This document shows positions 44,984 through 48,860 of a stretch of DNA of 64,000 nucleotides, in pieces. Each line of letters opens with the position of its first letter. Positions within the stretch are counted from its first letter, which is position 1. The stretch is from an uncultured Burkholderiales bacterium (lineage in GTDB: Bacteria; Pseudomonadota; Gammaproteobacteria; Burkholderiales; Burkholderiaceae_C): the NCBI GenBank assembly GCA_903830725.1, contig CAIKVH010000018.1, forward strand, positions 30,929-94,928, read 5' to 3'. The notes under the pieces were generated by a model that did no database searches, had not been told where the DNA came from, and saw only the letters and a list, made by a program, of their open reading frames with translations. The position numbers were made by a program, and so were the translations under genes.

Positions 44984-47701
44984 TTACAAATTGGGAGCTA
45001 GCATTCGCTGTAATTGTTTTTCACCTATCCCTTGCCGCGTTGCCAAATCACTGACCTGATCTGCTCCAATTCGCCCCACATTAAAGTATTTTGCCTCTGG
45101 ATGCGCCATATAGAACCCACAAACGCTCGCTGCGGGGTTCATTGCAAGGCTCTCCGTTAGAGACATTCCTATCTCTTCGCACTGCAGTGCATCAAACAGT
45201 TCACGCTTAACACTATGGTCGGGACAGGCGGGATAGCCCGGAGCGGGTCTAATGCCAATATATTTTTCTGCGATCAAGTCATGCTGCGTTAGTGATTCAT
45301 CAGCACTATAGCCCCATAAATCGGTCCTCACTCTGGCGTGCATACATTCTGCTAATGCCTCAGCTAATCGATCTGCTAGAGCTTTGAACATAATCGCACT
45401 GTAGTCATCGTGATCGTCCGTAAAGAACTTGTCCCTCACTTCCACCCCTATTCCTGCAGTTACTGCAAAAATACCCACATAATCTTTTATGCCCTTGGCA
45501 CCAACAAAGTCTGATAAACATCTGTTGGGTCGCCCTTGTTGCTTTTGGGATTGTTGCCTTAGTCCAAACCACGTAAACAAGGGCACATCTCGTTCCTCGT
45601 TGGTCCAAACGACGATGTCATCTCCACTTTGATTCGCAGGATACAGACCAACCACCGCCTGCGCTGTGAGCCATCTTCCATCTATTAAACGCGTCAACAT
45701 GCGCCGCGCGTCACTCATTAACCTTACAGCTTCAGCTCCCACGATTTCGTCTTTCAAAATGGCCGGATATGGGCCCGCCAAGTCCCACGTCTGAAAGAAC
45801 GGTCCCCAGTCTATGTACTGCTCTAACTCTGAGAGATTAAAGTTTTTGAATACTCGTTTCCCAATAAATTTTGGCCTCGCCGGCGTGTAGTTTGTAAAGT
45901 CTACGGTCGCTTTATTGGCCCTTGCTTGCGCTAAAGTTACAAGTGGAACAAGTTTTTTGTTCGCATGCTGCTCTCGAACGCGTGCGTAATCTAAATTTAA
46001 TTCATTGATATATGCGCTAGCTTGATCGGACAATAGTCCTTGAGCCACGCCGACACTCCTAGATGCATCGGGCACATAAACAACTGGCCCCTCATAGTGT
46101 GGGGCAATTTTGACCGCCGTATGAACTCGACTCGTTGTGGCGCCACCAATCAGTAAGGGAATTTTTTTAATTCGAAAATAATCATCCTTTTGCATCTCAC
46201 TGGCCACGTGCTGCATCTCCTCCAAACTCGGCGTAATCAAACCCGATAATCCTATGATGTCAGCACCCTCAACCTTTGCTAGGGCTAATATTTCATGGCA
46301 GGGGACCATGACACCCATATTGACCACATCAAAGTTATTGCACTGCAAAACAACAGTCACTATATTTTTACCAATATCGTGAACATCCCCCTTTACTGTT
46401 GCAATCACAATTTTGCCCTTGGTCCTGACCTCTTCTCCCGCAGCTTGTTGTCGCAATTTTTCTTGCTCAATATAAGGAATTAAATGGGCCACCGCTTGTT
46501 TCATAACCCTTGCGGATTTAACTACTTGAGGAAGAAACATCTTCCCCTGTCCAAATAGGTCTCCAACTATATTCATTCCGTCCATCAAAGGACCCTCAAT
46601 CACGTGCAAAGGTCGCCCCCCTTTGGCTAAGACTTCTTGATAGGCTTCCTCAGTGTCTTGGGCAATGAATTCAGTTATGCCGTGAACTAGTGCGTGAGCT
46701 AGTCGCTGAGCAACTCCGATGGGTGCCTCAGCTGTGCCTCTCCAACTATTTTTCTCCCCCTCATCCTTGGCCTGTCCCTTTGCTTGTTCAGCAATTTCTA
46801 TAAGTCTTTCTGCGGAATCACTGCGTCGATTTAAAACTACATCCTCTACGCGCTCGCGCAGATTAGGCTCTAAATCATCGTATACACCAACCATCCCCGC
46901 ATTAACGATCCCCATGTCCATACCGGCCTTAATTGCGTGATATAGAAATACGGTATGAATCGCTTCACGAACCGGATCGTTTCCTCTAAAAGAAAAGCTC
47001 ACATTAGAGACGCCACCCGAAACCTTTGCTCCTGGTAAGTTTTCTTTAATCCACCGCGTTGCATTGATGAAATCGACAGCGTAATTGTTGTGCTCTTCGA
47101 TCCCCGTTGCTACTGCAAATATGTTGGGGTCGAAAATAATATCCTCCGCTGGAAACCCAACTGAATCAACTAATAAGGTGTAAGCGCGTTGGCAAATTTC
47201 AATTTTCCGCTGATACGTATCCGCTTGCCCCCTTTCATCAAAAGCCATTACAACTGTCGCAGCTCCGTAGCGTCTAATTAACTTGGCCTGGCGAATAAAC
47301 TCCTGCTCGCCTTCCTTCATGCTGATGGAGTTCACAATTCCTTTGCCTTGAAGACAACGAAGTCCCGCCTCAATCACTGTCCATTTAGAACTATCTATCA
47401 TGATCGGTACCCGCGCTATGTCGGGCTCAGAGGCCAATAGATTTAAGAACTTAACCATTGCAGCTTGACTATCAAGCATTGCCTCGTCCATGTTGATATC
47501 TATGATCTGTGCGCCGTTTTCTACTTGCTGACGCGCTACTGCAAGCGCTTGCTCGTACTCTTCGTTCAGGATCATTCGCGCAAAAGCCTTAGAACCAGTA
47601 ACGTTAGTTCTTTCTCCAATATTGACAAATAAAGTATTTTGATCAATAGTGATAGGCTCTAAACCGGAGAGCCTTAGTGGAGAAATAATTTGACTTGTCA
47701 T
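44984..47701 (-). CDS. metH: Methionine synthase, folate/cobalamin/activation-domain part of split MetH
   Basis: [20 protein letters not shown]...[31 protein letters not shown]...[14 protein letters not shown]. Confidence 0.95.
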
Positions 47702-47706
47702 TGATA

Positions 47707-47734
47707 CTCACCTGGAAAAAAAGGTACAGGTGAG
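47707..47734 (-). promoter_or_regulatory. Anti-Shine-Dalgarno hairpin (riboswitch expression platform)
   Basis: Minus strand CTCACCTG-(12 nt)-CAGGTGAG, 8-bp perfect; the second arm is the SD (AGGTGAG) 5 nt before the metH ATG. Confidence 0.75.
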
Positions 47735-47797
47735 CGTCGTTTAAATATGGAGGCGCCCAAGCCTGTCAAATTTATATTTGATGCAACGCTCCTTGGG
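47729..47797 (-). promoter_or_regulatory. SAH (S-adenosylhomocysteine) riboswitch aptamer
   Basis: Minus strand CCCAAGGAGCGTTGC-atcaaatataaatttga-CAGGCTTGGG...AAACGACGCTCACC: P1 CCCAAG/CTTGGG, conserved GGAGCG-TTGC and CAGGCT, P2 TCAAA/TTTGA, pseudoknot GAGCG/CGCTC. Confidence 0.85.
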
Positions 47798-47813
47798 AAC
47801 TTAAATTTTACTC

Positions 47814-48860
47814 CTAATCAGAATAAAAATGGTGCTTACCCAATTTTCTTGCCTGCATTTTTTCAACGCTCAATGCAATAGCCCCAATATGATCTGGCGT
47901 CGTCCCACAACAGCCTCCCAAAATATTGACTAGCCCACTTTCTGCAAACTCATGGAGTAATCGACTTGTTACTTCAGGCGTCTCATCAAACCCCGTATCA
48001 CTCATCGGATTGGGTAAGCCTGCGTTAGGATAACAACTGATAAACGTATCCTCAGCCACCTTGGCCAACTCTTGCATGTATGGGCGCATCAAAGCAGCCC
48101 CAAGCGCGCAGTTAAGCCCTACGGCTAAGGGTTTTGCGTGGCGAACACTGTTCCAAAATGCTGAAACAGTTTGTCCACTTAAAATTCTTCCGGAAGCATC
48201 AGTCACGGTGCCACTTATTATGAGAGGCAAACGCTCACTTGTATTTTCAAAATATTCTTCAATCGCAAATAAAGCCGCTTTTGCATTCAATGTGTCAAAA
48301 ATAGTTTCCACCATCAACACGTCTACTCCGCCTTCAACCAGAGCAGCGACTTGCTCATAGTACGCTTTGCGCAATTCCTCAAACGTCACATTGCGCGCCC
48401 CAGGGTCATTTACATCAGGAGATAAACTAGCCGTTTTGGGTGTTGGGCCCAAAGCGCCAACAACAAACCTTGGTTTTGCTGAGGTTGAAAACTCTACACA
48501 GGCCAATTTAGCCAAGCGCGCCGACTCCAAATTCATCTCCCCAACAAGCCCTTGCATATCGTAGTCGGCCTGCGCAATAGAAGTTGCGCCAAATGTGTTG
48601 GTTTCTATTAAATCCGCCCCAGCCGCTAAATATCCTTTATGAATATCTAAAATAATATCTGGCCTTGTCAAGCTGAGTAGCTCATTGTTACCCTTCACAT
48701 CCTTGTGAAAGGCTTTGAACCTTTGTCCCCTAAAGTCATTTTCTTGCAATTTGAAACGTTGAATCATTGTCCCCATAGCGCCGTCCAATATTGCAATGCG
48801 CTCTTTCAGGATGTTTGGCAACGCCTGCGCCCGGGTGTAACTTTGTTTTATAGGGTTCAT
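47814..48860 (-). CDS. metH: Homocysteine S-methyltransferase part of split MetH
   Basis: [22 protein letters not shown]...[19 protein letters not shown]. Confidence 0.95.

Follow-up and report, generated by a model that had tools for sequence, protein, structure and literature searches.

The SAH riboswitch class and its link to metH are already known. In the Proteobacteria regulons described by Leyn et al. (2014, PMC4239095), metH is listed as a taxon-specific SAH-riboswitch target in Comamonadaceae, so that aptamer class and pathway are the same as in the locus presented here, and the named members of the family to which our genome belongs are Comamonadaceae. The portion of that article considered here makes no mention of a split metH, of control confined to the C-terminal half, of a −10-like box or of an anti-Shine-Dalgarno (anti-SD) platform. 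Split MetH proteins have also been described elsewhere, in three parts in Phaeobacter and in two parts in Sphingomonas (PMC5764234, PMC7857596), and the Phaeobacter parts were shown genetically to work together. These systems resemble ours in assembling a B12-dependent enzyme from separate polypeptides, although in other taxa, and the portions of the two reports drawn on here report no riboswitch between the parts. Closer at hand, Cupriavidus, Paraburkholderia, Burkholderia and Polynucleobacter share the same N/C split with short gaps, but differ in that the locus lacks an aptamer. In the openly accessible literature we found no account of an SAH switch serving one MetH half, nor of the anti-SD platform, and a search for intercistronic riboswitches in split metH returned nothing relevant among its top matches. 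What is new here is the placement of the switch on one half of a split enzyme, together with a conserved cassette of putative promoter, aptamer and platform.

The window, by which we mean the whole stretch of 64,000 nucleotides analysed, encodes MetH in two open reading frames on the minus strand. The upstream metH-N (47814–48860, 348 aa) contains S-methyl_trans (PF02574, 8.7e-94) as its only domain and covers positions 1–323 of TIGR02082, while metH-C (44984–47701, 905 aa) carries the folate, cobalamin and reactivation domains Pterin_bind (PF00809), B12-binding_2 (PF02607), B12-binding (PF02310) and Met_synt_B12 (PF02965) and covers positions 323–1182. All five Pfam domains of MetH are therefore present across both frames and the TIGR02082 model is covered without loss, as expected for a clean split. 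The preliminary description of this DNA had assigned the two frames to a homocysteine-binding and a folate/B12 half separated by about 112 bp, and both the assignment and the coordinates are borne out; the gap measures 112 bp and holds the aptamer. That both halves are conserved across the family suggests that their products together make up an active enzyme. A full-length MetE was not found in the genome, for which reason the split MetH is probably its main methionine synthase; a 347-aa frame (G000:C86:68108-69124) that matches positions 425–749 of the 754 in the MetE model, below the cut-off, is perhaps a core methionine synthase. No other known RNA was detected before metH-N in the window or in 11 named relatives.

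A cmscan search of the whole window returned a single Rfam match at or above the gathering score, the SAH aptamer RF01057 at 47725–47800 on the minus strand. It spans the full model (1–78) with 48.5 bits and an E value of 6.8e-6, computed over 64 kb and 4227 families, the gathering score being 37. This is the same element that had been placed at 47729–47797 on the minus strand, there trimmed by a few bases, and the covariance-model check proposed at that time accordingly gave a full-length match above the gathering score. The P1 and pseudoknot core read by eye in the preliminary description could likewise be substantiated in an alignment of 40 metH-C aptamers, the window sequence included. P1 is formed by CCCAA (47793–47797) and TTGGG (47756–47760), the pseudoknot by GAGCG (47787–47791) and CGCTC (47732–47736), all on the minus strand; both helices consist of standard pairs in 40/40 sequences and the core columns are invariant. 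While the pseudoknot strands are nearly invariant, two-sided changes occur at eight pairs across P1 and P2, among them three in P1. Overall, 94.1% of cells are paired vs 82.3% in shuffles, and sliding the partner strand by 1–3 columns leaves only 24–41% of the cells paired. By these comparative criteria the element is a genuine SAH riboswitch of the standard class, and it can be expected to bind SAH.

The association of this aptamer with metH-C was followed through the family, in which MetH consists of separate N and C halves throughout and SAH aptamers occur in 147 of 151 genomes, never more than two per genome. About 4 kb upstream of metH-C were taken from 100 genomes, giving 101 loci with the window. 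Aptamers were sought by regular expression, loci without a match were rechecked by covariance model, and only matches lying 15–130 nt before metH-C were counted; some regular-expression matches were discarded as chance, long-range or in-gene. Counted in this way, the aptamer precedes metH-C in 91 of the 101 loci: in 9/13 with adjacent halves (<300 nt), in all 40 with metH-N 0.3–4 kb upstream on the same strand, and in 42/48 where metH-N does not lie within 4 kb. An illustrative case is L042 from a genome of the same genus (G081), where about 1.2 kb including an opposite-strand reading frame separates the halves and the aptamer is found beside metH-C. Nine loci have no aptamer before metH-C by the covariance model either, and each of these genomes contains one SAH match. 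The tenth exception is L039, with the aptamer before metH-N and halves 33 nt apart. Both there (2807–2899) and in L143 (1992–2075), the whole cassette, that is the −10-like box, aptamer and anti-SD/SD helix, stands before metH-N and not metH-C.

Named genomes show the same picture, as the aptamer lies just before metH-C in GTDB loci of Variovorax, Rhodoferax, Ramlibacter, Polaromonas, Acidovorax, Comamonas, Albitalea, Rhizobacter and Rubrivivax. The wider survey of split metH in Burkholderiales suggested earlier thus gave a divided answer, with aptamers at loci of the Comamonadaceae type and none at the split metH loci of Cupriavidus, Paraburkholderia, Burkholderia, Caballeronia and Pandoraea or at most of those of Polynucleobacter. 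The absence from Cupriavidus, Paraburkholderia and Polynucleobacter makes the arrangement one of this family and not of split metH generally. In Janthinobacterium, Herbaspirillum, Massilia and Methylophilaceae metH is fused and the loci have no SAH aptamer, and a fused metH preceded by an SAH aptamer was found at L219 (genome G259) and L208. Since both combinations exist, split and switch can each occur without the other. The aptamers before these fused genes (L219, 1001–1068; L208, 3865–3955) have differing platforms, L208 possessing a CTCACG able to pair with a CGTGA that overlaps the start codon.

When the upstream DNA of the 91 family loci was aligned on the aptamer, one further element stood out from otherwise unconserved sequence. 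A TANAAT motif lies 7–14 nt before P1 in 89/91 loci vs 0.8% of random 25-mers drawn from the same loci, occurring as TAAAAT in 63, TAGAAT in 18 and TACAAT in eight, with TAAACT in the remaining two. The window has TAAAAT at 47805–47810 on the minus strand, which lies three bases past the stop codon of metH-N and 7 nt before P1, and a start 6–7 nt downstream of it would coincide with the 5′ edge of the aptamer. It is present in 9/9 loci that combine an aptamer with adjacent halves. The box was detected solely through the comparative alignment; a generic promoter and terminator scan found nothing above shuffles in the gap and missed it, and the aligned family loci have no conserved −35. As a promoter element the box is therefore backed by strong comparative evidence, as distinct from a mapped start. 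With this conserved motif sitting directly behind the metH-N stop, metH-C probably has its own promoter.

Downstream, 23 nt separate the end of the aptamer from the metH-C start codon. The anti-SD arm GCTCACCTG (47727–47735, minus strand) overlaps the pseudoknot 3′ strand and pairs in the minimum free energy (MFE) fold (−30.7 kcal/mol, z −2.74) with the GGTGAG-type Shine-Dalgarno (SD) arm of metH-C, CAGGTGAGT (47706–47714, minus strand). In the free leader the stretch around GCUCACCUG is thus predicted to pair with CAGGUGAGU and to bury the metH-C SD. Because the 5′ arm of this helix overlaps the pseudoknot 3′ strand, the sequestered and the SAH-bound state would be mutually exclusive. The helix recurs in nearly all 91 loci with a mean score of 20.9 vs 12.5 in shuffles, and in several of them it is replaced on both sides with pairing preserved, namely by CACTC/GAGTG in L049, CTCGC/GCGAG in L078 and CTTGCC/GGTAAG in L084, and likewise in L101. 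The two most variable helix pairs outside the pseudoknot beat 300/300 shuffles, narrowly (52 vs at most 50; 46 vs at most 45) and among related sequences.

In 60 loci the GGTGAG-type arm lies 7–13 nt before the metH-C start codon and is on that account taken as the SD. For these, the bound state was mimicked with P1 imposed and the pseudoknot strands made unavailable, and SD openness was read out. It rose from a mean of 0.07 to 0.29, increasing by more than 0.2 in 36/60 loci and decreasing in none, and in the window only from 0.002 to 0.16. The rise in openness once P1 is formed and the pseudoknot strands are withheld, together with the anti-SD/SD helix, predicts that the metH-C switch is an ON switch. 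An earlier version of the folding test, in which P1 was not forced, had given a weak response in this direct-SD group (0.26 to 0.38) and no effect in a second group with a distant GGTGAG, and was redone with P1 forced. This second group comprises about a third of the loci, with GGTGAG 20–90 nt before the start and often inside GGCCGCGGTGAGTnnGCGGCC; no clear switch emerged for it in the crude folding test. Leaders such as L081, L088, L096, L102, L110 and L116 represent a second platform type, in which GGTGAG lies 20–60 nt before the start within GGCCGCGGTGAGTnnGCGGCC and is followed by GAGGCCGCC-ATG. Such a platform may possibly work as a three-part relay and likewise switch ON.

Taken together, these observations make it quite likely that the gap between the metH halves holds an SAH riboswitch with its own promoter that controls translation of metH-C only. 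Independent control of the second half had been proposed in the preliminary description, and the comparative data lend it support, given the aptamer's attachment to metH-C even where metH-N is distant, the −10-like box between metH-N and the aptamer, and an anti-SD arm that pairs with the SD of metH-C; it would probably apply to most loci of the family, though not to L039 and L143. The main competitor is a single transcript that starts at a promoter ahead of metH-N, on which the switch merely tunes translation of the distal half. The two halves on one strand with a 112-bp gap would suit such purely intercistronic control, as would the lack of a good −35 and a translational platform that needs no separate promoter. 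We nevertheless regard it as rather unlikely, since the spacing between −10-like box and aptamer is preserved in 89/91 loci, the nine with adjacent halves among them, and since the halves are non-adjacent in most relatives, separated in L042 by an opposite-strand frame.

Switching by transcription termination in place of SD sequestration appears very improbable. It has a precedent in ahcY aptamers of other families, which are followed by a terminator with the pseudoknot strand as 5′ arm; the helix in the window, however, has its U-run in the loop and none after it, its 3′ arm is the SD itself, and the scan finds no minus-strand terminator in the gap. That the aptamer is a decayed, non-functional relic we consider scarcely credible. 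Its 48.5 bits are below the 53.4 of the ahcY copy and the aptamer has been lost from 9/101 loci, but the core is invariant, P1 and the pseudoknot are completely paired in each of the 40 aligned sequences, that of the window among them, and platform and −10-like box are conserved as well.

Under the favoured reading of a metH-C riboswitch with its own promoter, the conserved −10-like box implies that the RNA would start a few bases before P1. Without SAH, the pseudoknot 3′ strand and the bases that follow it would pair with the metH-C SD and block initiation. As SAH accumulates, the aptamer would fold, the pseudoknot would claim CGCUC and the freed SD would allow metH-C to be translated; SAH-bound RNA is accordingly predicted to show a protected core and an opened CAGGUGAG. 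More metH-C would raise MetH capacity and pull homocysteine away from SAH hydrolysis, next to the action of the riboswitch that precedes ahcY at another place in the genome. We infer that metH-N escapes SAH control. As the platform is translational, it may also act on read-through RNA covering metH-N and metH-C. Even with constitutive metH-N, the supply of metH-C would limit the whole enzyme, because the folate, cobalamin and reactivation domains reside on metH-C.

The ahcY riboswitch (L001, 1501–1584) is the only other SAH aptamer found in a search of the genome and scores 53.4 bits vs 48.5 for the metH-C copy. Its leader is similar to that of metH-C in having the same aptamer with a −10-like box ahead and a CTCACC...GGTGAG complementarity after the pseudoknot. 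It differs in that the GGTGAG arm is away from the start codon and in having an additional inverted repeat, CCACTGAT...ATCAGTGG, after it. A T-run comes behind this second repeat in some relatives (e.g. L019), which suggests a terminator there. Elsewhere in the order, six relatives from four families carry two tandem SAH aptamers about 0.2–0.3 kb before ahcY (L213–L218, from G196, G239, G160, G189, G274 and G198), each of the 12 scoring above the Rfam cut-off. Behind the first there is in most cases a terminator-like hairpin with the pseudoknot strand as 5′ arm, and the second lies just before the ahcY SD, with a GGGCG/CGCCC pseudoknot in most. Altogether, about 18 genomes from four families show closely spaced SAH pairs. 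These tandems contrast with a 2022 review (PMC9481103) that lists SAH among the riboswitch classes not found in tandem.

For the family as a whole, we put forward a wider proposal to which we give about even chances: the promoter, aptamer and anti-SD arm would form a cassette by which SAH induces only that half of MetH which bears the cofactor and can be reactivated, with metH-N expressed separately, so that a metabolite would set the subunit ratio. The cassette would have been kept beside the C-half while the N-half was rearranged repeatedly, and moved before the N-half in at least two lineages. Natural variants are available for comparison, in which the switch precedes the C-half, the N-half or a fused metH, or has been lost, and the anti-SD/SD helix yields precise predictions for point mutants. 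With a metabolite-sensing RNA placed on one part of a split enzyme, control of the subunit ratio of methionine synthase becomes testable.
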